Positions 8,907 to 21,545 of a DNA stretch of 31,146 nt are shown here, piece by piece. Below the pieces are notes generated by a model. The model saw only the letters and a program-made list of their open reading frames with translations. It was not told where the DNA came from and ran no database searches. Location of the stretch: the IMG/VR virus record IMGVR_UViG_3300030106_005107, positions 9,599 through 40,744 of that record; one strand, written 5' to 3'. Position numbers and translations under genes: made by a program. Source of the DNA: a virus. Each line of letters begins with the position of its first letter. The stretch's first letter is position 1.

Positions 8907-9791
8907 CTATCTAGCGTACCCTGCTAATGCATTTATTCCTTGTAAAAGAGGGTTGCCCATACCTGGTGTGCTTGGCGACATAAAAGATGGTGCCGCACCA
9001 CCAAGTAAACCAGCTTGAAATGTTAATTGATCATACGGTTGTCTAAACTGAGCCATTTGATTCTGAAATGCTTGTTGTGCTGCTTGTTGCTGCGCAGCAG
9101 TTTCTGTTACACCTAATTGACTTAGTTGTGTTGCTAAGTTTGCTTGTGTTGTTGGTGCTTGTACACCAAATGTTCCAAAGAGCTGACCAATACCCGTGCC
9201 TAATTCACCACCAGCAAGTTGTAATCCAGCTGCCTGTTGTTGCGCTCTTCTTTGATTTTCAAATGCATTTTGAGCTTGTTGCTGTGCAGTTTGAAAACCT
9301 GATGATAAAAGACCAGCGATGCCAGTTCCTAATTGTTGTTGAAAACCTCTTTGTGCCTCTGCTTCTAGCACACCCTCACGATCACCGCCAAAAGCACCTG
9401 CACTAATAGCATCTGCTTTTCTTTTTTGACCAGTGATGTCAAACTGTCTTTGCATTTCTTGTGTATATCTGTCAATCACTTCTTGTTGAAAAGGATTCAT
9501 GAAAGCTTGATAAGACTGTGGATCGTAGGCCCCGGTTGTTTGAGCCGACATTGCTGCTGCATTACCAATGGTTGATTGTGCATCTTGTAATGCACCGACA
9601 CCCATACCAAAGTAATCAGGTCCTGATGTTGCGGCCGTTGATGCTAAGTTAGTTGCTTGACCGATTGCAGCAGAAGGTTGAACAACCTCTTGAGTTGGAA
9701 TTTTTTTTGGCTTTGATGTTAGCTTTTGACCAGCGGTTAGCACATTACCGTATTGTTGTGCAATTAATTCTTGTAATTCTTGTGGTGTCAT
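8907..9791 (-). CDS. Gln/Ala-rich virion protein, T7 gp14-like by position
   Basis: 294 residues from ATG 9791, with AGGTAGGG just upstream. The centre has FMNPFQQEVIDRYTQEMQRQ followed by KRKADAISAGAFGG and DREGVLEAEAQR. A NPF/NPY...VID...AGAFGG.R pattern of this sort recurs, from memory, in virion proteins of many podoviruses and siphoviruses. The C-terminal half is extremely Gln/Ala-rich and helical (AQQQAQNAFENQRRAQQQAA) and ends in a Gly/Pro/Leu segment. It is probably an internal or ejected virion protein. The A of its start codon region overlaps the stop of the 291-residue gene, indicating coupling. Confidence 0.82.
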   Translation of the reverse strand: MTPQELQELIAQQYGNVLTAGQKLTSKPKKIPTQEVVQPSAAIGQATNLASTAATSGPDYFGMGVGALQDAQSTIGNAAAMSAQTTGAYDPQSYQAFMNPFQQEVIDRYTQEMQRQFDITGQKRKADAISAGAFGGDREGVLEAEAQRGFQQQLGTGIAGLLSSGFQTAQQQAQNAFENQRRAQQQAAGLQLAGGELGTGIGQLFGTFGVQAPTTQANLATQLSQLGVTETAAQQQAAQQAFQNQMAQFRQPYDQLTFQAGLLGGAAPSFMSPSTPGMGNPLLQGINALAGYAR

Positions 9792-10971: not shown

Positions 10972-11673
10972 TCACTTATAGGATTTTTTTGACCAAAATT
11001 TTGACTTATAACTACCTGTTAATTTTTTAAAATAATCAAAATACATCAAATTCTTTTTTTCAATGGATAAATTACATACTTTTGTTTCCATTTTCCAAGA
11101 CTCTCTTTTAAATGGAAAAACCATAGCCATAGGACTTCCTTCTTTAATTATGAATGTATCATCAAATCCACGTGTCCAATAAAAAGGAAAATGTATATTT
11201 AAGGGGTGCGTATCTGTATCGACCACTCCTGTGATTAAATTAAATGGAAGTACATGATTAAAGGGTGTAGTGAATAAACAACTGTATCCTATGGGAGTTT
11301 TTATTTGCCAAGGATTTAAAAATTTAAAAACAGCATTAACAGTTCTATTAGGATGCATCATTTCTTTGCTTATTTGATTTAAATTGTGCTCATCTACTCC
11401 AATCAAATTAAAAAAGTTAGGAGGAATATTACTGTTTATATTAAATTTTACCTGATTTTCATCTAATAAAACTTCAATATCTGTTGGAAAAGGAATTATG
11501 TAACCTGTTGTTAAAGCATCTAAAAAAGGTGGACATTTTTTTACTGTAGGTTTGGTTATTGTTTTATTAAATGTGTGCAAATCTTTATATGATCTAGGTA
11601 TGTAAACCTGTGACGGTTTAGGTTCTGATACAAAACCTTTTAAAGGAGAAGTAAAAGTAATTTTTTTATTCAA
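10972..11673 (-). CDS. Conserved marine-phage protein of unknown function
   Basis: 233 residues from ATG 11673, without a visible Shine-Dalgarno site. It contains KKCPPFLDALTTGYIIPFP (about 46-64), FKFLNPWQIKTPIGYSCLF (about 116-134), a GVVDTDTHPLNIHFPFYWT segment (about 149-167) and IIKEGSPMAMVFPFKRESW (about 175-193). I associate this arrangement with an unassigned protein family common in marine phages; its GSPMAMVFPF part recalls beta-sandwich or cupin-like folds, but no metal-ligand set is clear. It is A+T-rich and without a ribosome site, as are the oxygenase genes further upstream, and may belong to the same accessory cassette. Function unknown. Confidence 0.8.
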   Translation of the reverse strand: MNKKITFTSPLKGFVSEPKPSQVYIPRSYKDLHTFNKTITKPTVKKCPPFLDALTTGYIIPFPTDIEVLLDENQVKFNINSNIPPNFFNLIGVDEHNLNQISKEMMHPNRTVNAVFKFLNPWQIKTPIGYSCLFTTPFNHVLPFNLITGVVDTDTHPLNIHFPFYWTRGFDDTFIIKEGSPMAMVFPFKRESWKMETKVCNLSIEKKNLMYFDYFKKLTGSYKSKFWSKKSYK

Positions 11674-12030
11674 TTATTGTTGTTGTTTTACTTCTAATAC
11701 TGATACTTCAACCATTGCTCTAGAAGCTGCGTTTGCTTGTAGTTTCATAGCATCGCCTTCTTGATAGACCATAGAAGTCGAAATAGTGTTTGTGTCTGAC
11801 GCTGATACATCTACTTGAAAAACTTGTAGATCATTACTTCCGTCATTGTGATCAATGTTAACTGTCACTGCGCTTGATCCATCATAATTGTGTGTATTTA
11901 TAGTTTTTACAATAAATGTCGACACCGGTGTAGGTGGAGTAGCTGCTACGTTTGCGGTGGGCACAGTAAAAATTGTGGTTAAATCAGTAGTAGTTAAGTT
12001 TGCTATAAATCTTTTAAATACGTCTGCCAT
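11674..12030 (-). CDS. Small virion-type beta protein
   Basis: 118 residues from ATG 12030, overlapping the stop of the 55-residue gene by one base. The sequence is Thr/Ala/Val-rich and beta-like: MADVFKRFIANLTTTD, FTVPTANVAA, FIVKTINTHN, then SMVYQEGDAMKLQANA and a final VEVSVLEVKQQQ. Small proteins with a TVP...VK/V...GD...L.A pattern ending in SVLEV are common among phage tail or capsid accessory proteins, from memory. Placement next to accessory enzymes but with virion-like composition suggests a small fibre-, knob- or decoration-type protein. Exact role is not determined. Confidence 0.7.
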   Translation of the reverse strand: MADVFKRFIANLTTTDLTTIFTVPTANVAATPPTPVSTFIVKTINTHNYDGSSAVTVNIDHNDGSNDLQVFQVDVSASDTNTISTSMVYQEGDAMKLQANAASRAMVEVSVLEVKQQQ

Positions 12031-12197
12031 TAATTAAAAAACCACGCCCTTCTTGTGGCCTCCTCTTGTGTGTCTTGAGTATATTGTGTATTTAACTGTT
12101 GTATCATCTCTTCTAACTGTCTGATCAATTCAGCGGATTGCTGAGCATCATACTCAGGTCTAGGATCAGGAAATCTTTGTAATGTTAATTTTGCCAT
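12030..12197 (-). CDS. Small conserved coiled-coil protein
   Basis: 55 residues from ATG 12197 to TAA 12030. The stop of the oxygenase-like gene at 12197 overlaps the ATG (TAATG), and its own stop overlaps the next start, so it is held in a tight chain. The sequence begins MAKLTLQRFPDPRPEYD and continues with an Ile/Leu/Gln heptad-like helix (SAELIRQLEEMIQQLN), ending in RRAWFFN. A similar PRPEYD...IRxLExxxxQLN pattern is familiar to me from small proteins of marine cyanophages and pelagiphages near tail genes. It probably forms a short coiled-coil oligomer. Role unknown. Confidence 0.78.
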   Translation of the reverse strand: MAKLTLQRFPDPRPEYDAQQSAELIRQLEEMIQQLNTQYTQDTQEEATRRAWFFN

Positions 12198-12850
12198 TAT
12201 TTATCCTCGTAAAGAAAATATACTGTATTATATCTCCAATTTCCATTTGAATATTTAGAGTGATCTTCTATGTGTCCTCCGTGATAAATTTGACCGTCAA
12301 AAATAACACACCTATTAAATTTTGAAGGTATAACGTGATACTTTAAATTATCCTTTTGTTTATCATATTTAATATCTAAAGACTCGTCTTGTAAAATTGT
12401 TGGCTTTCCTTCATAAAGAGCTGTCCCGCCTGAGTTAATTTTATCTAAATAAACTAAAATATTTATTGAATTGTCCTGATGAGGTTGAAATTGAAAATTT
12501 GAAGTAGGAGGTAAAATCCATGAAAATATATTACTACTTATTTGAAAGTAAGAATGATTCTCTAATCGCAAAATACTTTTCAGAAAAAGCATAGTTTTAT
12601 CTTTATTTTTTAATCCATATTTTCTGTTTGGAAAAGACAATCTACAGTCGTAATACTCATGAAAGTTTTTTCCATGTTCATTAACCTTCCAATTCTGCAC
12701 CCAAGAAGTTTGAAATAGGGAGTAAATATCTTCTGCATTTTTATAAAAATTATCTATTGATAGATAACGATAAGGTCCAAGGTTAATTAGTTCAGGTTTT
12801 AAATCATCATTAATTTCAAATAAATTACTATCAATAAAAGGACGAGTCAT
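12197..12850 (-). CDS. 2OG-Fe(II) oxygenase-like protein 6
   Basis: 217 residues from ATG 12850; no Shine-Dalgarno site. The double-stranded beta-helix signature is visible: HQD (124-126) followed by SINILVYLDKINSGGTALY, then CVIFDGQIYHGG with distal H190, and R206 in WRYNTVYF as the probable 2-oxoglutarate-binding basic residue. It resembles the DUF6445-type branch as I recall it. Such enzymes hydroxylate proteins, small molecules or nucleic-acid bases using O2 and 2-oxoglutarate; the substrate here is unknown. It overlaps oxygenase-like gene 5 by four bases (ATGA) and closes the enzyme cassette at its downstream side. Confidence 0.8.
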   Translation of the reverse strand: MTRPFIDSNLFEINDDLKPELINLGPYRYLSIDNFYKNAEDIYSLFQTSWVQNWKVNEHGKNFHEYYDCRLSFPNRKYGLKNKDKTMLFLKSILRLENHSYFQISSNIFSWILPPTSNFQFQPHQDNSINILVYLDKINSGGTALYEGKPTILQDESLDIKYDKQKDNLKYHVIPSKFNRCVIFDGQIYHGGHIEDHSKYSNGNWRYNTVYFLYEDK

Positions 12851-13353
12851 TTGTTTTCGACTATATTAAAATCAGTGTTAAATGCGATAATAGTTTTTCT
12901 ATTATTACCTTTGATTGGTGGCGACATGTGAGGTAAAAAAGCTGGAAAACTTAAAATGTCCCCTTCTTCACACTCTTCTGTAAAATCTTTAAATTTAGTG
13001 CTCATACCCTTTGGACACTCTAAAAAGTAAACATTAGCAAAATTTGAATAAGGGTGAGTATGCCATCCATGATTATTATTTTCTCCATATTGTTGAAACC
13101 AAAAATTACCTATGAGGTAATTATTAAGTTTTAACTCATTACACATATTTACTAAATGATCACTGATCGTTTTTATAAATAAACTTTTGTACTCTCGATG
13201 CATTGCTGCTGGAAGATTCCAATCAGTATGTTGAATATTATTAGTTTCTATTTTAAAAGGATTTGGTGGTATTAAAGCTATTTGTTGTAAAAGTTTTTCT
13301 TTTATTTCATAATGATTTTTCACTTTACTTTTAAATATATATTTATTTTTCAT
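12847..13353 (-). CDS. 2OG-Fe(II) oxygenase-like protein 5
   Basis: 168 residues from ATG 13353; an in-frame ATG at 13368 would add five residues and lengthen the overlap with the carbamoyltransferase gene from 11 to 26 bp. Key residues: H98-T-H100 in HGWHTHPYSNFANVYFL, distal H142 in SFPAFLPHMSPP, and R152 in NRKTIIAFN. The HxHP..S...VY pattern fits the PF13759-type putative 2OG-Fe(II) oxygenases, which I recall as having HxH in place of HxD. The gene is translationally linked to the carbamoyltransferase on one side and to oxygenase-like gene 6 on the other, suggesting action in one pathway. Confidence 0.8.
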   Translation of the reverse strand: MKNKYIFKSKVKNHYEIKEKLLQQIALIPPNPFKIETNNIQHTDWNLPAAMHREYKSLFIKTISDHLVNMCNELKLNNYLIGNFWFQQYGENNNHGWHTHPYSNFANVYFLECPKGMSTKFKDFTEECEEGDILSFPAFLPHMSPPIKGNNRKTIIAFNTDFNIVENK

Positions 13354-14788
13354 AAAGTTCATTTCCATAGACTAAAACATCCATACTTGATTGTTTAAAT
13401 AAATTGAAAGCATCTTTAAAATCAGGCGCTAAAGGTTTTCCATTTATGTTTAAACTTGTATTTAACAAAGTTTTACAATTAGTTTTATAAAAAAATTCTT
13501 TAATAAGGTTTTCAAATAAAAAATTATTTTGAACAGTATGATGTCTACATGTGTTGTCTACATGTGCAATAGAGGGGTATTTTTTTTCATCAATTATGTG
13601 TGTAAACAACATAAACTTACTCACACTAAAATTGTTATCTATTGTAGAGCAACCAAAAGGTCTAAAATATTCTCTTTTTTTTATGTCATTTACTCTTTTT
13701 TTCATGTTTGAATCTCTAGGATCAGCTAAAATTGATCTGTTTCCTAGAGCTCTTGGACCTATTTCTCCATTACCTTGGTACCATCCTATAATTTTCTGTT
13801 CTTGTAACAATTGAGCCACTTTTTTTAATAAATTTCTATCAGGAGATTTTTTTGGTTTGTTGTCGCTTTGACAATATGGAAAATTGTTCAAGGTAAAATG
13901 AGGAAGATTATGTTTAATTCTTAAATATTCTAAAGCTCCTAAGCTTAATCCCTCATCTGAAGAATGTGGAGGAATTACAATATTTTTAAATTTTTTTCTT
14001 ATTTGAGTATTCCAACAAACATTTAGGGCAACACCTCCTGTGTAACAAAAAGTTTCATCAGGATGAAAGTGTTTTTCTAAAAAATCTAATAGTAGATCAT
14101 TAACATACAGGTGAATTGTTCTTATCCAATTTAATTTTAATTCAGGCTTGTCGAAATAATTTTTTACGTCAAATACACTACCTATTTGATAGAAATCATA
14201 TTTTTTTAAAAATTCAAAAAACTCTTTGTCAAGGCTTCCAAAACTTTGAAGTCCCATAATTTTTCCAGGAAAGTCTAATTTAAAGCCTTTAAAATCAAAC
14301 CATTGCCCTAAAGAAGCATACTCTGCTCCAATTGAACCATTGTTTCTAAATCCTCTTTCTTTTATTTTTCCATTTGTAAAAACAGTCCACACTTGATTGT
14401 AATCACCATAACCATCTATGGAAAATCCATTAAGATTACTTGGATTTTTAACGATAGGCCAACAGCTTAAATGATGAGCGTAATGATGATTAACTCGTGT
14501 TACGGTACACTTTGATGAAAAATCATCCAATTGTATTGAAGGAAAAAAATCATCATTTCTAACGTGTCTACCATATAACCAAGGATCAAACACAATTGCT
14601 ATTTCATTTAAATCGCTTTCTTTTAATCCCCATTGATCATAAATTATATCTTTCCATAAATTTAAATCATTTACTGCATGATGTTTAATATTAAATTTTC
14701 TTTCAGTTTTTAAATAATGAACTTTTTCACCATCAAAGTAAGAAAAATTACTATTGTGCTCACATATTCTAAGTCCCAGTAATTTCAT
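13343..14788 (-). CDS. O-carbamoyltransferase, NodU/CmcH family
   Basis: 481 residues from ATG 14788, directly abutting the stop of oxygenase-like gene 4. The family transfers a carbamoyl group from carbamoyl phosphate, via carbamoyl-AMP, to a hydroxyl group. Motifs: metal-binding HHYAHH (101-106), DGYGD (125-129), GGVALN (251-256), and the family hallmark GNGEIGPRALGNRSILADPR (339-358), then REYFRPFG (372-379) and LLNTSLNINGKPLA (441-454). The two-domain order (Kae1-like then the C-terminal domain) appears complete, though at 481 residues it is shorter than many homologues. Known substrates in this family include Nod factors and antibiotics; a phage-type relative has been reported to carbamoylate 5-hydroxymethylcytosine. 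Substrate here unknown. Confidence 0.93.
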   Translation of the reverse strand: MKLLGLRICEHNSNFSYFDGEKVHYLKTERKFNIKHHAVNDLNLWKDIIYDQWGLKESDLNEIAIVFDPWLYGRHVRNDDFFPSIQLDDFSSKCTVTRVNHHYAHHLSCWPIVKNPSNLNGFSIDGYGDYNQVWTVFTNGKIKERGFRNNGSIGAEYASLGQWFDFKGFKLDFPGKIMGLQSFGSLDKEFFEFLKKYDFYQIGSVFDVKNYFDKPELKLNWIRTIHLYVNDLLLDFLEKHFHPDETFCYTGGVALNVCWNTQIRKKFKNIVIPPHSSDEGLSLGALEYLRIKHNLPHFTLNNFPYCQSDNKPKKSPDRNLLKKVAQLLQEQKIIGWYQGNGEIGPRALGNRSILADPRDSNMKKRVNDIKKREYFRPFGCSTIDNNFSVSKFMLFTHIIDEKKYPSIAHVDNTCRHHTVQNNFLFENLIKEFFYKTNCKTLLNTSLNINGKPLAPDFKDAFNLFKQSSMDVLVYGNELYEK

Positions 14789-15262
14789 TTACTTTATTTT
14801 GGATAATGCTCCTACTGCAATTTTTTTGTTACCTGAGCTAGGTTCTCCCCAATGCCATATATCTGAAGCAAAAAAAATTATTTTTCCTCTCTCTGGTTTA
14901 ACTTTATAAATATCTTTTCCAAATTTAAAACACGTGTTTCCATCTTCTGAATCAGATAAATATAAAATAAAAGAAAAGTCCTCCGTATTTTTATGATCAT
15001 GAGCCTCTTCATAACCACTTTGATAAAAATGAATTAGATGAACATGATGTAAAATACAGTCTTCATAAGGAATCTTATTTAATATTTCACCACAAACTTC
15101 ATGAGTTGATTTAAAGTTAAGTATATTTCCTGTATGATATCCGTTTATACAACAAGAATCTGAACGTAGTGAAGAATTTAAATCTGGTCTTAAATTTTTA
15201 AACATTTCTAATGTCTGTAAAAATTTGTCAACAGTGTTGTCAGCTATTTTATCTTCTACCAT
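14789..15262 (-). CDS. 2OG-Fe(II) oxygenase-like protein 4
   Basis: 157 residues from ATG 15262, overlapping the end of the tail nozzle gene by 14 bp; longer readings would run far into that gene. The signature is H88-D-H90 in EEAHDHKN, a strand with ILYLSDSEDGNTCF, then VKPERGKIIFFASDIWHWGE with distal H137, and K146/K147 before IAVGAL as possible 2-oxoglutarate contacts. Its core (YLSDS, VKPE.GKIIFF) is visibly similar to oxygenase-like protein 3, so the two may descend from a duplication, but here HDH stands where protein 3 has HLD. Whether this retains iron binding is uncertain. It abuts the carbamoyltransferase gene (TAA then ATG). Confidence 0.75.
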   Translation of the reverse strand: MVEDKIADNTVDKFLQTLEMFKNLRPDLNSSLRSDSCCINGYHTGNILNFKSTHEVCGEILNKIPYEDCILHHVHLIHFYQSGYEEAHDHKNTEDFSFILYLSDSEDGNTCFKFGKDIYKVKPERGKIIFFASDIWHWGEPSSGNKKIAVGALSKIK

Positions 15263-17075
15263 CAGGTTGAATGTCAAAACGTTGTGTTCCAAGTCTCCAT
15301 GCGGTACCTGTAGTATTTGAAACGACATTAACAGTAAACTCTCTCCCTCTTCCACGTAAGCTTACAAATTCTGTAGCATCAGTAAAGGTGGCTGTTTTTG
15401 TGGTGCTAGTGCTATTGTTTGGATAATATTTAAATTCTAATTTCATATTTAGTGTTCCTGATTGATTTTGAATATCAGGAATCAATTTTTGTACAAAAAG
15501 AATATCGTTTCCTTCTCCTATTTCAACAGATCCAGATTTAACAAATGCAGTCATTGCTTCTCCATCAGCATCGTTACCTGTCTCATGTAAAAACATTTGT
15601 GTAGCACCGTCAGTCAAACCAGAAATAGTCTCATTATTAGCCGTGGTTGTTGGTAAATAATCCGACGCTACAGGATTGTCGTACACTTCTCGATCAATCC
15701 AAGTTGTTCTGTCCAAAGTTCCTGTCCACCAAGTTTGTTCTAAATAATTATAAGCAACAACAGCATTGATTGTGTCCGATCCTGTTCTAGGATAGAACCA
15801 CATTATTTCATTAAACTCACCATTGTGCCCTGCAAAAGCGTTTTCAGATCCTGTAATATTTATATTGTCAAAAACAAATTGTTCCACGGTGCATGGTAGT
15901 TTTTTAACCGTACCATCAAATAAATAAAAAGAATCTTGAGACATCCAATATGCAACACCATTTAAATCAAGTCCTGCGTGCATGCCTATAATACCACAAT
16001 TTTGACCTAGCTGTCTTAAACCGAAAGTAAAAGGAGGACCAATAAATTGCATTCCATGAAGTGAAGTGTCAGTCCAAACAAGTATCTGACCTCTTGATCT
16101 TTCTGCAGCCACAATTCGAGATCCATCGGCAATACGTAAAGAACCCGCAGTATTTTCTGCGGTGGGTTGATACGTGGTAATATCTTCTTGATCTGAAAAT
16201 CTAATAAGTAAATCATCTTGTGAGTCAGTTGTTCCAATCGTGTTTTCTGTTCCCATAAACACTAAATGTCTATCAGGTGTGGATACTAAACTTAGTCTTG
16301 ATGCGGTGGGAGCATTTGTTATAGCAGTGGCTCTCGTGCTTACACCCAATGAAGTATCCCATTTAAAAGCACCACCATTTAAAACGGTTGCAATTAAATC
16401 TTCACCAAAATTATCAAGTGACCATTGTCTTGCCTCTAAAGTTACGTTTGAGACTGTTGAAGGAGTGCCCCATGTACCCGAACCCCAACTGTCCGTGCCC
16501 CAACCAAAAGCAGAAGTAGATATCTCAGGACCTATTGATATTTGATATTTTGCATTACCTGAACCACCACCACCAGATGTAGATCCAGAGGCTGCAGCCG
16601 TTGTCGTTACTACATAAGCATCACTGTTTGCTACGGATGTTACTTCAAACTCTTTATTCATATCTAAACCATCTATTGCAGAAAAAGAATCAAATGTCAC
16701 AAAGTCTCCCGCTTGAGCACCATGTGAAGTATCTGTGACAACTACGGATGTTGTTGCATTTGTGGTAAATGGATTAGTTAAAGCTTGTGTTTCTCTTATA
16801 GGGGTAATGTCGTAAGCTAAACCCTCTTCTATTACATAAAGCTTTCTGTCCGTACCTACAGCATTGTATCTTGTGCCATCTAAAGCTACCCATGCGTGCA
16901 TATCACGTGCTACACCCACTAAAGTGGTAGAGATAAACTTCTCCCATCCTTTGATTTTTTGTGGCAATCCTTGAAAAAAGCGTACATTATCACCGTCCGT
17001 CCACTTGCCTTCGCCTGTGTAGTCGGTCACTTCTTTATTGATGCCTGGTGCTGGTCTAAAATTTACGAGTGGCAT
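15249..17075 (-). CDS. Tail nozzle/hub protein, P22 gp10-like
   Basis: 608 residues from ATG 17075. The N-terminus MPLVNFRPAPGINKEVTDYT, then GKWTDGDNVRFFQGLPQKI (23-41) and the C-terminal WRLGTQRFDIQPDGRR are hallmarks of the podovirus tail-stabilisation or nozzle proteins (P22 gp10, T7 gp12-like). The middle has beta-propeller-like repeats (DRHLVFMGT, GQILVWTDTSLHGMQ, GVAYWMSQDSFYLFDG, NEIMWFYPR). A Gly/Ser-rich linker (163-173) and a Trp-Gly stretch GWGTDSWGSGTWG (191-203) lie in front. The protein would form the distal tail tube. The gene stands inside the modification cassette, between the glycosyltransferase and oxygenase-like gene 4, making the tail a candidate substrate. Confidence 0.9.
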   Translation of the reverse strand: MPLVNFRPAPGINKEVTDYTGEGKWTDGDNVRFFQGLPQKIKGWEKFISTTLVGVARDMHAWVALDGTRYNAVGTDRKLYVIEEGLAYDITPIRETQALTNPFTTNATTSVVVTDTSHGAQAGDFVTFDSFSAIDGLDMNKEFEVTSVANSDAYVVTTTAAASGSTSGGGGSGNAKYQISIGPEISTSAFGWGTDSWGSGTWGTPSTVSNVTLEARQWSLDNFGEDLIATVLNGGAFKWDTSLGVSTRATAITNAPTASRLSLVSTPDRHLVFMGTENTIGTTDSQDDLLIRFSDQEDITTYQPTAENTAGSLRIADGSRIVAAERSRGQILVWTDTSLHGMQFIGPPFTFGLRQLGQNCGIIGMHAGLDLNGVAYWMSQDSFYLFDGTVKKLPCTVEQFVFDNINITGSENAFAGHNGEFNEIMWFYPRTGSDTINAVVAYNYLEQTWWTGTLDRTTWIDREVYDNPVASDYLPTTTANNETISGLTDGATQMFLHETGNDADGEAMTAFVKSGSVEIGEGNDILFVQKLIPDIQNQSGTLNMKLEFKYYPNNSTSTTKTATFTDATEFVSLRGRGREFTVNVVSNTTGTAWRLGTQRFDIQPDGRR

Positions 17076-17093
17076 TGTGCCAATATATATAAA

Positions 17094-17906
17094 TTACTCT
17101 TTTTTAGCAACTAAAGACCCTACATGACCTTTAAAAGCTCGATTACCGAAATGTGTTAATGGCATCGCTAAATCTGCCCAAATTTTGCCACCACATTCTT
17201 GCCATAATCGTGAAAAATAATAATCCTCTGATAAGTACCTGATTTGTGATTTTCCATCTTTAGGAGTATTGTAAGGACCTACTGCAAACAAATCATAACA
17301 ATTATCTGATTTATAAGGGCCACCATTTACTATTTGATCAGACTCGTATTTTCTTTCAGGAAACTTTTTAAACATGGTTCTAAAGACTTCTCGTTTTACC
17401 AACATCATTCCTGTTGCAGCTTCATTAACAGGAAAAAAACCATCATGACCTTGTAAATTATCAGGATTATCAAAATTAAGATTATAGCCCAAAGCACGGG
17501 CTTCTATTTCATCGGGCTGTGCACTAGGGTTTTCTTCTAATATTTTTTTTATTTTTTCTAAATACAAATGTTTTCTAGGATAAATACCACAAACGATATC
17601 TTTATCTGCGCATAATAATCTCTCTATATTTTGCCACCTAAAACCTATATCAGCATCTATAAATAAAAGATGCGTAGCAACGTAATCTTTTTCATCCATC
17701 ATCATAGAGACAATGGTGTTACGAGCTCTGGTGATCAAGCTTTCATTGCCCATTGTTTGTATTCTCATTCCAATTTTGTTTGCTTGAGTCCAAGATTGTA
17801 ATTCTAATAAACCATGTAAAGTAGGTTCTGTAAGCATCCCACCATACATGGGCATTCCTAAATATATTTTAAAATTCTTATCTTTTAGTTCTTCTGGTTT
17901 AATCAT
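17094..17906 (-). CDS. GT-A-type glycosyltransferase
   Basis: 270 residues from ATG 17906. The N-terminal Rossmann-like start KIYLGMPMYGG (13-23) and RARNTIV (60-66) lead to LFIDADIGF with the D84-A-D86 nucleotide-sugar/metal motif. VNEAATGMMLVKREVF and YLSEDYYFSRLWQECGG follow, the latter fitting the ED acceptor-side motif of GT-A enzymes, and MPLTHFGNRAFKGH ends the domain. It should transfer a sugar from a nucleotide donor to an acceptor; the acceptor (virion protein, surface glycan or base) cannot be read. No membrane segment is visible, so it is cytoplasmic. It sits 10 bp after oxygenase-like gene 3 and 18 bp before the nozzle gene. Confidence 0.88.
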   Translation of the reverse strand: MIKPEELKDKNFKIYLGMPMYGGMLTEPTLHGLLELQSWTQANKIGMRIQTMGNESLITRARNTIVSMMMDEKDYVATHLLFIDADIGFRWQNIERLLCADKDIVCGIYPRKHLYLEKIKKILEENPSAQPDEIEARALGYNLNFDNPDNLQGHDGFFPVNEAATGMMLVKREVFRTMFKKFPERKYESDQIVNGGPYKSDNCYDLFAVGPYNTPKDGKSQIRYLSEDYYFSRLWQECGGKIWADLAMPLTHFGNRAFKGHVGSLVAKKE

Positions 17907-17916
17907 TATTTTCTCT

Positions 17917-18462
17917 TTAATTCAATATCTGCCATTGTTGACACTTTCTATAGTTAAATGCAAGTGTAGTTCTTTTTTGCTCACTATCGTTTGGTGCTAC
18001 TCGGTGTTCTACTGAATCTGGAAAAATAATAATTTTTCCAACTTCTGGCTTTACAGCTATGCGATCATGTAAATAAAATTCTGTTACTGCATCTGAGTCA
18101 GACAAGTAAACTATACCACAGATGTGTCTATATATTGAATCTAAATGTGAGTGAAACTCTTGATTATATTCTTTTAAATATATGTTAATCCAAGAATGAC
18201 TTATAAATCCTTGATAAAAAGAATTAGATAAGATCATATAATTGTGTAAATGACTTAATATATTTAAATATAGGGCTTGTAAGTTATTTATATTTAAAAT
18301 ATTAGAGGTAACTGCATTGGTTGTTAAACATTGAGATTTATAAGTAGGTTGAAAAATTTTTGAATCAAGTTTTTCAACATAATTAATAGTGTTATTAATT
18401 ACTTCTTTATCAATAAAATTTTCATATATGTTATTTATTTTTGGTCTTTGAAGAAAAGACAT
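17917..18462 (-). CDS. 2OG-Fe(II) oxygenase-like protein 3
   Basis: 181 residues from ATG 18462, directly abutting the stop of oxygenase-like gene 2 and lacking a Shine-Dalgarno site. Metal ligands are H106 and D108 (HSHLDS; H104 is an alternative ligand), distal H153 in IIIFPDSVEHRVAP, and R164 in KRTTLAFN as the 2-oxoglutarate contact. Strand GIVYLSDSDAVTEF and VKPEVGKIIIFP match oxygenase-like protein 4. The pattern fits PF13759-type putative oxygenases. The gene is strongly A+T-rich, and the N-terminal 90 residues are Asn/Ile-rich. Substrate unknown; the glycosyltransferase follows. Confidence 0.82.
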   Translation of the reverse strand: MSFLQRPKINNIYENFIDKEVINNTINYVEKLDSKIFQPTYKSQCLTTNAVTSNILNINNLQALYLNILSHLHNYMILSNSFYQGFISHSWINIYLKEYNQEFHSHLDSIYRHICGIVYLSDSDAVTEFYLHDRIAVKPEVGKIIIFPDSVEHRVAPNDSEQKRTTLAFNYRKCQQWQILN

Positions 18463-19059
18463 TTAATTTTTATATCCTAATGAAGGTCTTTTATCAAATT
18501 TGTATTCTTTATAAGAACCATCTTTATCAACATAATGTAAAAAGACAGTAATAAAATGATCGTGATTGCATATTTCTCTCCAATGAATTTTTTTCATTCC
18601 TTTAAATATTACTGCATTGTTAGGCACCATAGGAAACTTGTGTTCAATTTTGCACCTCGTAAGTTTTCCTTTTTTATTGTAATATTTATAATCAGAATTC
18701 TTATCTTCCTCACCAACAAATATTTCATAAGGTTCATCTACTGGATCTGCTCCAAGACATAAAGCAACCGTATATTCACAAGACTCTCGATCTGTGTGAA
18801 TTTTGAGGTCTGAACCTTTATCATATATTCGAAAGAAAGAATAAGTTGGCCATAATTTTTTACCTACATTTTGTTCAACAACAGGAGTGCTCATGTCCAT
18901 TAAGGTTTCCATCAAAAAATCACCATGTTCAGATATTAATGATTTTGTTTGATTATCTATTTTAAATGTTTTTTGATTTGAATATTTTATTACTGAGTAA
19001 GAGTAAGCTAAGTTTAAAATTTGTTTCGGTAAAAATTCTTTTATAAAAATTGGTTCCAT
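18463..19059 (-). CDS. 2OG-Fe(II) oxygenase-like protein 2
   Basis: 198 residues from ATG 19059, abutting the stop of oxygenase-like gene 1. The iron-binding motif is H88-T-D90 (DLKIHTDRES), followed by the strand EYTVALCLG. VPNNAVIFKGMKKIHWRE carries distal H159, and the final strand HFITVFLHYVD completes the fold. A FFRIYDKGSDL stretch (75-85) immediately before the HTD is typical of these enzymes. The C-terminus is Lys-rich. It belongs to the 2OG-Fe(II) superfamily by motif order; the subfamily is not certain. The 2-oxoglutarate-binding Arg/Lys is less obvious than in proteins 1 and 3. Confidence 0.82.
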   Translation of the reverse strand: MEPIFIKEFLPKQILNLAYSYSVIKYSNQKTFKIDNQTKSLISEHGDFLMETLMDMSTPVVEQNVGKKLWPTYSFFRIYDKGSDLKIHTDRESCEYTVALCLGADPVDEPYEIFVGEEDKNSDYKYYNKKGKLTRCKIEHKFPMVPNNAVIFKGMKKIHWREICNHDHFITVFLHYVDKDGSYKEYKFDKRPSLGYKN

Positions 19060-19605
19060 TTAAATTACCCAACCTATTAAGGCATAACGTGTACCTTTTG
19101 TTATTTTGTTTACCTGATGTGGAAACATAAAATTAGAAGGAAATATAACTGCGTCTCCAACGTTTTGTGGGACAATGTAGTGTCCACTTGGTATATCAAA
19201 AACAAATTCTCCACCTTCATACTCGTTATTTAAACAAATAGAGATAGAAAGGTGTCTTTCTGTTACTTTAGCACCAAAATCTTTATGAAAATCATAACCT
19301 GCCTTATGTTCGTTTGCATCGTATTTAAGTAAATCTAATTGAGATATTTTTTCAATAGCAATATTGTTATTTTTTTTGTAATGATCAACACATTGAAATA
19401 TTTTTTCTTTTATTGCATTTGTGCAAATTTTTTCACCAAAAGATTTTGGGTCCAATAAAGAACGAGTTACACAATTTCTTACGTCTTTATTTACCCCTAA
19501 TCCAATAGTGCCTGCATCAACATAATCTTTATCAAAATAAGAAATAATTTTTTTACAAAAAACTTGAGGTATTATTTTTTTAACTTCTAAAATATATTCT
19601 TTCAT
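19060..19605 (-). CDS. Prolyl-4-hydroxylase-type 2OG-Fe(II) oxygenase (oxygenase 1)
   Basis: 181 residues from ATG 19605. It is the clearest oxygenase of the set: H107-K-D109 in YDFHKDFG, RHLSISICLNNEYEGGEF (117-134), NVGDAVIFPSNFMFPHQV with distal H163, and R173 in KGTRYALIGWVI as the 2-oxoglutarate-binding residue. This is the full P4Hc pattern found in prolyl hydroxylases and their phage relatives. It would hydroxylate a side chain, probably of a protein, consuming O2 and 2-oxoglutarate. It begins a run of three abutting oxygenase genes immediately after the fibre region. No Shine-Dalgarno site; the upstream bases are a plain A+T-rich stretch. Confidence 0.9.
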   Translation of the reverse strand: MKEYILEVKKIIPQVFCKKIISYFDKDYVDAGTIGLGVNKDVRNCVTRSLLDPKSFGEKICTNAIKEKIFQCVDHYKKNNNIAIEKISQLDLLKYDANEHKAGYDFHKDFGAKVTERHLSISICLNNEYEGGEFVFDIPSGHYIVPQNVGDAVIFPSNFMFPHQVNKITKGTRYALIGWVI

Positions 19606-19628: not shown

Positions 19629-20057
19629 TTAGTAAGTAATATTGTGTGCAGAAAGGTAATTATCCCTTGCTGTATTTGCAGTTGTATCAGCGTTTGCTTG
19701 AGAGTCTGCATCTCCCGCCATGGCATTTGCATGAGCTATTTGCCAAGAATCTTGAGCCTCACATCTTATGACAACATTAGTTGCCCATTGAGGAAATGAA
19801 GATATAGACAGATTTTCTCTGTTATCAATGTATTCAAGTTCTCCTGTGTTAGTGGTAGCGTCCCACTGTAAAGCGTGAACATTAGAATCAATTTCGGTGT
19901 GTGAACGAAGATTTAAATAAATTTTATCGTCGAGGTAAACATCTGATTCAGTATTGCCTGTGCCTTTTGCAGGTCCATCACCATTCAAAGCACCAGCGGC
20001 ATCAAAAATAATAGTAATTCTAGTATTGACTGTTGTGTTATTTACTGTTGTTGCCAT
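19629..20057 (-). CDS. Small tail-region protein of unknown function
   Basis: 142 residues from ATG 20057, overlapping the end of the Cys-containing protein gene by 20 bp. The N-terminal half is Thr/Asn/Asp-rich and beta-like (TVNTRITIIFDAAGAL). The C-terminal part is Ala/Asp/Asn-rich and helical (SWQIAHANAMAGDADS, TARDNYLSAHNITY). The middle holds LQWDATTNTGELEYID. The layout recalls small tail-fibre assembly or accessory proteins, which often follow the fibre gene, but the motif set is not clear. It is the last virion-type gene before the oxygenase run. Confidence 0.65.
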   Translation of the reverse strand: MATTVNNTTVNTRITIIFDAAGALNGDGPAKGTGNTESDVYLDDKIYLNLRSHTEIDSNVHALQWDATTNTGELEYIDNRENLSISSFPQWATNVVIRCEAQDSWQIAHANAMAGDADSQANADTTANTARDNYLSAHNITY

Positions 20058-20475
20058 CTTTTTTTCCTTTCTTTACTTTTACCTTATTATTACTTAATTG
20101 TCTAATAGTTTCGTCCTCTAAGTCTGGATTGTTTGTTTCGATTGCTCTTTGATGTCTGCCTATTTTTCCAAATAAACTCGATATATTTTTAATTTCATTT
20201 CTTTTTTTAGGGTCAGCAGCTAAAATCTGATTCATTACATTTTGCCCTTTGACCATTTCATTTCTAAATGATTCAGTGGCAGAAGTAATTCCGTTTATTT
20301 TTGAAGAGTTTTCCACTAAAAGTAAAGGGAGCCAAGCAATAGAACAGCCCCATTCTTGAACATCTAAACCTGTTTGAGGATGTTTACCTTGAAGCATGTT
20401 ATACCAAACACATTGATGTTTTATACATTTTTTATTGAGTAACGGACATTTACCGTCAGGGTCAAATATGGGCAT
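20038..20475 (-). CDS. Conserved Cys-motif protein (CPLL-KC-C-WGC)
   Basis: 145 residues from ATG 20475, overlapping the tail fibre stop by one base. The N-terminus carries C10 (CPLLNKKC), C17, C22 (HQCVWYNML) and C44 (EWGCSIAWLPLLLVENS), a spacing that could hold a zinc ion or iron-sulfur cluster. The rest is helical, and the C-terminus is Lys-rich (VKVKKGKK). I recall this CPLL...KC...WGCxIAWLP family as common next to tail fibre genes in marine phages, with no known function. Partnership with the fibre or with the downstream oxygenases is possible. Confidence 0.78.
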   Translation of the reverse strand: MPIFDPDGKCPLLNKKCIKHQCVWYNMLQGKHPQTGLDVQEWGCSIAWLPLLLVENSSKINGITSATESFRNEMVKGQNVMNQILAADPKKRNEIKNISSLFGKIGRHQRAIETNNPDLEDETIRQLSNNKVKVKKGKKDGNNSK

Positions 20476-21545
20476 TAATCTTTTGCAGCGATAATAACGT
20501 TTGCGTATTTCACGTCTGCAGCAGGTACAGTTACAGAAACATCTGCGGTTGCTCCTGATAAACTACCAGAAAATGGGTGAGAGTGTGCTCCACCTCCACC
20601 TGCTGGAGTTACTGCATTTGGACCACCACTAGCATTCTGAGCCGCGTTCCAACGATCAGGATTGCCTATATCTGTAAGACGATCTTGTGGTTCCGTTCTA
20701 TCTGGGTCCGAATTTGCAAAACTAAGAGGGTGATTATGACTAGCAATTGTTGGAGTGGAAAGTGTTGTTGGTCCCACTGTACCACTAACTGAGCCTGTAA
20801 CAGGAGCGGATGGTTGAGCTCCTGACTTATCAGTTGTGGCTAAGAAAGATGAAAAGTAAGCTGTTGAACCACCTGTGCCTCCACCAGTTCCTGTAACCAC
20901 TGACATGACTGCTTCTGATAAACCAGAAGCCGTATCTTGTGTCCATCCTGTTGGAGCAGATGCCTGGTAAAAAACTTGCTTTGTTCCAGAAGGAAAAGGT
21001 TCAACACCTGTTAAGTTAGATCCATCACCTGTATAAGTTGTAGCTGAGACTGCACCGTTTGTTCTCAAAAGAATGTTACCACCACCTGCTGTGACAGTAT
21101 CTTTAAAAGTAGTTGTTCCTAATAATGAAGTTGAAACTTCGACATTAAAGTTGGATGCACCATCACAATACACTCTTGAATAAGCTCCTTGTGTTATTAC
21201 GGTTCCATTAGCTTGATGTCCTGTAGCTGCTATGGTTAAGGTTTGAGAACCTGATGTGTTATTAAAAAATAGATACTCACTTTCAACTGCTGGTATAAAA
21301 ACAACAATATCGCCTGTTAAAGCACCTGTAAGTTCAATAACTTTATTTGAAGACTCAGCGGTATCCGAAGCATTTGCAGTAGAAAGAGTTATATTAGCAG
21401 AACCCGCTACAGATTTAGATAAGTATCCTGCCGCAAAAGCGTCTAAAACTTCTAGATTATTATTAGTATTTGTGCCCCATGTATTGGCATTAGCGCCAGT
21501 TGCCATAAGTTCTAGTTTGAGTCTATCTGAATATGTACTTGCCAT
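20475..21545 (-). CDS. Tail fibre/collar-type protein
   Basis: 356 residues from ATG 21545 with GAGAGG upstream. The N-terminus (YSDRLKLELMATGANANTWG, 5-24) is the common start of phage fibre proteins; residues about 30-180 are Thr/Ser/Gly-rich beta repeats, including TTYTGDGSNLTGV. The C-terminal part begins PFPSGTKQVFYQASAPTGWT, the typical entry to a tail-collar-like receptor-binding domain, followed by Gly-rich loops and two His-x-His segments (SHNHP, AHSHP) that resemble metal-binding fibre tips. It probably contacts the host surface. The oxygenase and glycosyl/carbamoyl genes follow closely, so this protein is a candidate target for modification. Confidence 0.88.
   Translation of the reverse strand: MASTYSDRLKLELMATGANANTWGTNTNNNLEVLDAFAAGYLSKSVAGSANITLSTANASDTAESSNKVIELTGALTGDIVVFIPAVESEYLFFNNTSGSQTLTIAATGHQANGTVITQGAYSRVYCDGASNFNVEVSTSLLGTTTFKDTVTAGGGNILLRTNGAVSATTYTGDGSNLTGVEPFPSGTKQVFYQASAPTGWTQDTASGLSEAVMSVVTGTGGGTGGSTAYFSSFLATTDKSGAQPSAPVTGSVSGTVGPTTLSTPTIASHNHPLSFANSDPDRTEPQDRLTDIGNPDRWNAAQNASGGPNAVTPAGGGGAHSHPFSGSLSGATADVSVTVPAADVKYANVIIAAKD

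Follow-up and report, generated by a model that had tools for sequence, protein, structure and literature searches.

The 31,146-nt stretch of viral DNA analysed here (positions 9,599 to 40,744 of the IMG/VR record IMGVR_UViG_3300030106_005107; hereafter the window) belongs to a virus record of 52,336 bases and uncertain completeness, and carries a dense run of enzyme-like genes wrapped around a tail nozzle gene. Nine minus-strand open reading frames (ORFs) span positions 12197-19605 with a largest gap of 18 nt, encoding, in order of transcription, OX1, OX2, OX3, GT, the nozzle, OX4, CT, OX5 and OX6 (OX, oxygenase-like; GT, glycosyltransferase; CT, carbamoyltransferase). An initial annotation, made from the letters alone, had described eight such enzyme-like genes around the nozzle; all nine ORFs were recovered at the coordinates it gave, and the ORFs, gene joints, Pfam search and nozzle profile agree with that layout. 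The window nozzle is 40-48% identical to the nozzles of phage DSL-LC04, HTVC023P and HTVC027P, of which the latter two are cultured relatives with Pelagibacter as host. The region falls within the block of tail genes in podoviruses related to HTVC023P, a lineage that is an abundant group of bacteria-infecting ocean viruses. The features are listed below, where 2OG denotes 2-oxoglutarate and the slots are those found by comparison with relatives.

19060-19605, minus strand: OX1, PF13640/PKHD-type (YbiX/PiuC-like) 2OG-Fe(II) oxygenase, core gene
18463-19059, minus strand: OX2, core gene, predicted 2OG-Fe(II) oxygenase of phrog_2954 (a family whose 'ferrochelatase' name is by prediction erroneous)
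17917-18462, minus strand: OX3, PF13759 oxygenase, slot A cassette
17094-17906, minus strand: GT, probable GT-A glycosyltransferase, phrog_1574, core gene
15249-17075, minus strand: tail nozzle by profile, structural anchor between slots B and C, phrog_3287 (7.6e-88)
14789-15262, minus strand: OX4, PF13640 oxygenase, slot C cassette (listed ORF 14789-15355)
13343-14788, minus strand: CT, NodU/TobZ-type O-carbamoyltransferase by its domains, slot C cassette
12847-13368, minus strand: OX5, PF13759 oxygenase, slot C cassette
12197-12850, minus strand: OX6, DUF6445/2OG-like oxygenase, slot C cassette
11674-12197, minus strand: d3 and d4, invariant pair closing slot C; d4 is up to 99% identical in relatives
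10972-11673, minus strand: DUF6065-like protein (PF19541 2.2e-4, below cut-off), in slot D here and usually in slot A in relatives
19629-21545, minus strand: upstream adsorption/tail-fibre module with genes of 142, 145 and 356 aa, its type co-varying with the cassettes

The genes are tightly packed. Abutting joints occur at 19060/19059, 18463/18462 and 14789/14788, CT and OX5 overlap by 26 nt (13343-13368) and OX5 and OX6 by 4 nt (12847-12850), and the other spacings are 10 and 18 nt. The ATG at 15262 is probably the start of OX4 rather than the GTG at 15355, which falls within the nozzle gene; with this start, OX4 would overlap the nozzle gene by 14 nt.

A conserved core interleaved with exchangeable cassettes

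Using the nozzle, 304 relatives were recruited, from which 80 IMG/VR loci were retained; their ORFs were called, clustered and compared by scripts. The relatives share a common frame, namely tail-fibre module, OX1, OX2, slot A, GT, slot B, nozzle, slot C, d3, d4, slot D and d6, with a fifth slot between genes u10 and u7. Only OX1, OX2, GT and the nozzle are near-constant among the 80 loci. The slots were found to be occupied in 45/58 (A), 50/78 (B), 47/68 (C) and 48/59 (D) loci, each by 17-30 gene families. Control junctions, on the other hand, were interrupted in 0/32 (u13-u10), 0/67 (d3-d4) and 0/36 (d9-d12) cases, and the stretch d6-d9 in 4/49.

Turnover within the slots is high, with 36 arrangements among the 49 loci in which slots A-C are complete. 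Loci whose nozzles are 95-98% identical had a mean Jaccard index of shared cassettes of 0.14, and the window and locus L001, despite nozzles that are 98% identical, have just two cassette families in common (c8 and c36), which for the most part do not occupy the same slots. For pairs with 94-98% nozzle identity, the gene content from d6 to d12 was identical in all 57 of 57, compared to 7-25% for slots A-D. Families are not bound to one slot: c8, which includes OX3 and OX5, was found in A, B, C and D, and c22 in all five slots. Chance and assembly chimeras were considered and rejected as the source of these patterns, as the control junctions are closed and identical arrangements turn up in contigs from separate metagenomes (L049, L050, L053 and L074, among others). 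Gene exchange is thus concentrated in this region, a hotspot where interchangeable cassettes lie between the members of a conserved core (OX1, OX2, GT, nozzle, d3, d4). Inversions were also seen, with the OX1-OX2 pair of L051 and L052 being inverted relative to the tail operon and inverted oxygenase genes adjoining the nozzle gene in HTVC027P.

Slots A-D hold 356 cassette genes in total, of which 243 belong to 24 oxygenase/cupin families. Among the remaining cassettes are 7 carbamoyltransferases, 8 enzymes of sulfotransferase type, 6 GT9-like proteins, 4 methyltransferases, 1 Fe-superoxide dismutase, 32 DUF6065-like proteins and some unknowns, and most of the annotated non-oxygenase cassettes are group-transfer enzymes. 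The superoxide dismutase (Fe/Mn type, L056:3824-4492) is complete and occupies slot A. Outside the window, the same virus record encodes a Methyltransf_24/TylF-like methyltransferase among its packaging and head genes (L087:2828-3451).

In nearly every oxygenase cluster, an HxD/E/H motif and a distal His are kept in at least 85% of members, the exception being the cupin-like c33, the least secure family. Profile-profile comparison to Pfam-supported clusters gave values of at least 92% for c22, c29, c30, c51 and c65, 75% for the OX2 cluster c5 and 49-73% for c34, c35, c36, c73 and c89, with eight control clusters at 3.5% or below; the same comparison revealed no hidden oxygenase homology for c14, c20, c21, c27, c60 and c72. 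Ratios of nonsynonymous to synonymous substitution (dN/dS) in related pairs were ~0.05-0.2 for the nozzle, GT, OX1, OX2, OX3/5 and CT, indicating purifying selection on the core genes and most cassettes. Few pairs were available for cassettes and none for OX6, and c42 deviated with a value of 0.5 from three pairs.

CT is present in 13/81 loci (many of them incomplete) and in different slots (u10-u7, A and C). A fixed pathway of exactly the window's composition was rejected, given this scattered presence and the individual exchangeability of OX3 to OX6. Of the proposal in the initial annotation, the tail-region location holds, as it recurs in relatives; a single stepwise hydroxylation-decoration pathway of defined composition is not supported, since only OX1, OX2, GT and the nozzle form the core. 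The outcome that the annotation had named as refuting it, independent carriage of the genes by related phages, applies in part, although the genes keep to one neighbourhood.

Enzyme assignments and the 'ferrochelatase' label

OX2 is assigned to phrog_2954, named 'ferrochelatase' in PHROG (OX1 to phrog_61), and matched no Pfam family above cut-off. An AlphaFold2 (AF2) model built from 40 sequences reached a predicted local distance difference test (pLDDT) score of 93.9, and Foldseek returned 478 PDB matches at E<=0.001, with a Pseudomonas putida prolyl-4-hydroxylase as the best (E 2.8e-8); among the 50 matches listed, all were 2OG oxygenases or proteins annotated as oxygenases. The residues H88, D90 (together H88-x-D90) and H159 do not vary among 40 podoviral sequences, nor when these are aligned with 'ferrochelatase'-annotated proteins of HTVC023P, HTVC033P, HTVC008M, S-CAM8, S-RIM32, S-RIM44, EXVC030M and S-MS29. 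The Pfam model for ferrochelatase gave no match at E<=1 to OX2 or to nine relatives, most of which are annotated as ferrochelatase. With this fold, the invariant iron motif and the silent ferrochelatase model, the identity of OX2 as a ferrochelatase was rejected, and the name of phrog_2954 is predicted to be wrong, the family more likely being a 2OG oxygenase. The same misnaming is predicted for PHROG 3531, and tblastn retrieved 134 phage records with homologues, many of them so labelled. PHROG 274 and 2297 ('DNA endonuclease V' and 'DNA endonuclease'), matched by OX1, OX3, OX4 and OX6, have members in 2OG clusters of cyanophages and EXVC030M and are probably mislabelled oxygenases too.

OX1 and OX2 are separate genes in 43/51 complete loci and fused in 3/51. 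Cluster c59 (L016, L018, L023, L033) comprises proteins of ~378 aa in which OX2-like and OX1-like halves are fused, with two metal motifs. In the cultured phages HTVC023P and HTVC033P, 2OG and OX2-type genes lie within the tail region.

The other five oxygenase-like proteins were assigned by profiles. OX1 matched PF13640 (1.1e-12) and the NCBIfam PKHD-type model (1.8e-13, under that model's cut-off), and its cluster c1 conserves an HxD..H motif. OX3, in cluster c8, matched PF13759 (2.4e-12), as did OX5 (3.7e-8); an OX5 relative with 81% identity occupies slot A in L007. OX4 matched PF13640 (8.9e-7) and aligned by hhalign to the 2OG cluster c8 (97%), its closest relatives occupying other slots. 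OX6 matched DUF6445 (6.1e-9) and weakly PF13640, with 64% in hhalign to the 2OG cluster c38; its cluster c36 (9 members) conserves HxD..H, and tblastn found no match to it in the phage collection. The six oxygenase-like genes of the initial annotation are accordingly of iron-oxygenase type, OX1, OX3, OX4 and OX5 by Pfam matches above cut-off, OX2 by structure, and OX6 by a weaker match (DUF6445 and a sub-threshold 2OG hit). The motif kept in at least 85% of each window oxygenase cluster is HxD for OX1, OX2 and OX6 and HxH for OX3, OX4 and OX5; for the latter three, whose clusters conserve HxH..H, the acidic iron ligand is uncertain.

The carbamoyltransferase label was borne out as well. CT contains both carbamoyltransferase domains (PF16861 5.3e-45, PF02543 1.1e-14), belongs to phrog_1601 (3.4e-124) and matches profiles of TobZ structures (3.6e-25) and NodU (2.8e-29, NCBI families), with TobZ and GdmN being the closest solved structures with a named function. 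By both domains, it is an O-carbamoyltransferase of NodU/TobZ type. Phage relatives were recovered by tblastn, including the HTVC008M carbamoyltransferase (39% identity); a search of viral contigs with short exact peptide patterns yielded none.

Neither GT nor the nozzle matched a Pfam family above cut-off. A profile of six nozzle sequences matched solved nozzles (8zkk/8zkm ~6e-13, 9nwi 6e-27), identifying 15249-17075 as a true podoviral tail nozzle in line with its original label. The glycosyltransferase label is plausible, though more weakly supported than the others: the GT profile matches A197 of Sulfolobus turreted icosahedral virus (STIV; 2c0n, E 0.011), the homologues give weak but concordant matches to Anp1 (2.7e-4) and GT2/GT21 (~2e-3), and their IDxDI and ED motifs are invariant, which makes GT a probable GT-A glycosyltransferase. 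The AF2 model of GT was poor (pLDDT 52), and Foldseek on that model was uninformative. STIV A197 is a GT-A enzyme that is essential for STIV and possibly glycosylates the coat protein (PMC10551542). A GT homologue in ACG-2014f lies within a tail-collar fibre module. In the T4-type phages phiM12, Cr30, OC and DLP6, the family is located between the gp46/gp47 region and sliding-clamp genes, a possible DNA-glycosylation setting.

Adsorption-module linkage and possible substrates

Three types of upstream adsorption module were distinguished (c16/c17, c26 and c28-c20-c29). Their relation to the cassettes was assessed by regression on nozzle and GT identity with label permutations, using oxygenases only (an earlier version used all cassette families) and slot D as an internal control. 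Loci with the same module type share more oxygenase cassettes, the observed value being reached in 0/2000 permutations for slot A, 32/2000 for B and 34/2000 for C; for slot D, 652/2000 permutations reached it and no link of oxygenase cassettes to adsorption type was found. This constitutes moderate evidence that the cassette sets in A, B and C, but not D, follow the type of the upstream adsorption module. The tail-fibre/collar protein of that module in the window (20475-21545) carries two C-terminal HxH motifs (SHNHP and AHSHP) reminiscent of metal-binding fibre tips, and 25/55 of its relatives have at least one HxH.

The hydroxyl groups that 2OG oxygenases commonly create can serve as capping sites for glycosyl-, carbamoyl-, sulfo- and methyltransferases. 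The best explanation for the locus, to which we assign a probability of roughly 0.4, is a combinatorial kit acting late to hydroxylate and cap an exposed polymer, most likely the tail or adsorption proteins. We infer such a kit from position, composition, turnover and co-variation. It would be produced late, together with the tail; OX1 and OX2 would hydroxylate one common substrate and the core GT would cap it, and the cassettes would add phage-specific hydroxylations and caps (carbamoyl in the window virus) at the same or neighbouring sites. The exposed tail and adsorption apparatus would be the most likely substrate, followed by a host surface glycan. A new cassette set could then alter virus binding or recognition, which would account for the rapid cassette turnover. 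In favour of this explanation we count the likeness of OX2 to peptidyl-prolyl hydroxylases, the GT profile match to A197 and the tail-collar GT homologue of ACG-2014f, along with the slot architecture with its closed controls, the rapid cassette turnover, the spread of single families over several slots, the oxygenase enrichment with its group-transfer companions, the metal motifs, the purifying selection, the adsorption co-variation and the tail-region genes of HTVC023P and HTVC033P.

Several observations weigh against it. The permutation test leaves some shared ancestry unremoved, and physical linkage could carry slot A along with the adsorption module. OX2 gave TM-scores of 0.5-0.6 to prolyl hydroxylases at ~12% identity, which supports the fold but not the substrate. 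Half of the window oxygenases have HxH rather than HxD and some may therefore be 3-His or non-2OG enzymes, and the carbamoyltransferase, sulfotransferase and GT9-like cassettes are of kinds that typically act on sugars or small molecules. Furthermore, the GT homologues of phiM12, Cr30, OC and DLP6 adjoin replication genes, not tail genes; with relatives near replication genes in some phages and near tail-collar fibres in another, position alone does not fix the substrate. A more far-reaching version of the tail-tailoring kit, which we regard as tentative and somewhat unlikely, is a phage 'surface code', in which hydroxylases and capping transferases from a shared pool enter fixed slots by the nozzle, so that tail-protein or host-surface chemistry would differ between near-identical phages and be re-set by cassette exchange.

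The enzymes might instead modify lipopolysaccharide or another surface glycan of the host late in infection, blocking superinfection or the re-adsorption of progeny to debris. The sulfo-, carbamoyl-, GT9-like and methyltransferase cassettes do resemble glycan-decorating enzymes, CT is closest to NodU and TobZ, which act on sugar-containing molecules, and the cassettes co-vary with the adsorption module; yet most cassettes encode oxygenases, which seldom act on glycans, the window has no genes for sugar nucleotides or O-antigen next to the cassettes, and the place within the tail block fits tail substrates equally well. We hold this reading to be unlikely. We consider it rather more doubtful that the genes are separate auxiliary metabolic genes (AMGs) altering the 2OG, nitrogen or iron state of the host, which share a recombination hotspot but no substrate. 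This is the published interpretation for cyanophages (PMC9602691) and pelagiphages (PMC9599517; PMC12753301), and the superoxide dismutase cassette in L056 would suit it. It does not, however, predict the group-transfer neighbours, the core GT or the co-variation with adsorption type, and the re-assignment of OX2 removes the 'ferrochelatase' part of the iron/heme argument.

TET/JBP enzymes hydroxylate DNA bases, and DNA was among the targets suggested in the initial annotation: the oxygenases would hydroxylate bases that GT and CT then cap, as in base J or 5-carbamoyloxymethylcytosine. One metagenomic CT, probably from a phage and co-occurring with a thymidylate synthase (TS)-family hydroxymethylase, makes such a carbamoylated nucleotide (5cmdC; PMC8670742), GT homologues are found near gp45-gp47, and in P-RSM6 the CT has a 2OG gene and DNA methyltransferases in its vicinity. 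PF00303, PF00145 and PF01555 were nevertheless not found in the 52 kb record, which is possibly incomplete (the PF00303 and PF00145 controls worked), leaving CT with neither a TS-family dCMP hydroxymethylase nor a C5 methylase plus TET enzyme, and no N6/N4 methyltransferase was detected; TET_JBP (PF12851) gave no match, its positive control being likewise silent. The published hypermodification genes of the lineage are moreover separate, near PolA, and the genes here are in the tail block, which makes DNA a disfavoured and improbable target in this genome. Least credible of all is neutral hitch-hiking, in which insertion-tolerant slots accumulate small oxygenase genes without function: the very high cassette turnover is what it would produce, but purifying selection, intact metal motifs, the strong enrichment for one fold and the near-constant OX1 and OX2 speak against it.

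Comparison with known systems

Among the genes of marine phages that lack an explanation, those for 2OG oxygenases are some of the most frequent, and they are usually interpreted as acting on host metabolism. That they are concentrated here in fixed slots next to tail genes, accompanied by group-transfer enzymes and varying with adsorption type, offers a testable alternative, namely chemical tailoring of the virion or the host surface, and the reshuffled cassettes suggest that each virus may tailor its own tail or host surface in its own way.

In the related lineage of HTVC023P-type pelagiphages, eight non-orthologous 2OG oxygenases have been described as 'partner AMGs', often beside 'ferrochelatases' that were taken as haem enzymes and connected with the regulation of haem and iron (Wittmers et al. 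2022, PMC9599517); the text consulted contains no mapping to slots around the nozzle and GT, and no cassette turnover, co-variation or carbamoyltransferase cassettes. A time series from the Western English Channel reported phrog_2954 to be enriched in seasonal viruses and used phrog_61 (the OX1 family) and phrog_2954 (that of OX2) as 2OG and ferrochelatase AMGs (PMC11561400), the latter being re-assigned here. The re-annotation undercuts a published inference, since the family reported as a haem/iron gene of pelagiphages and as a marker of season is predicted to encode one more oxygenase; no earlier correction of the label was found in the open-access literature, subscription papers being outside that search.

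The cyanophage S-SCSM1 encodes 24 2OG-Fe(II) oxygenases (PF13640/PF13759), interpreted as host-metabolism genes (PMC9602691). It shares the large expansion of these two families, but is a T4-like myovirus and its genes were not described as a tail-linked cassette island. The 5-hydroxymethylcytosine carbamoyltransferase identified by MetaGPA on phage-like contigs has the same domains as CT (PF02543 and PF16861; PMC8670742), but co-occurs with a TS-family hydroxymethylase, of which none was found in the present record. Closer in composition are HTVC008M, S-CAM8 and S-MS29, in which a CT is adjacent to 2OG genes, with an OX2-type 'ferrochelatase' nearby in S-CAM8 and S-MS29; these clusters are, however, not arranged around a nozzle, and occur in different phage families with only distantly related enzymes. 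The expansion of 2OG oxygenases in marine phages and the CT-2OG neighbourhoods of the latter three phages are thus already known, whereas the slot-bound exchange of cassettes around the nozzle, their co-variation with the adsorption module and the correction of the ferrochelatase label are, as far as found in the literature, new.

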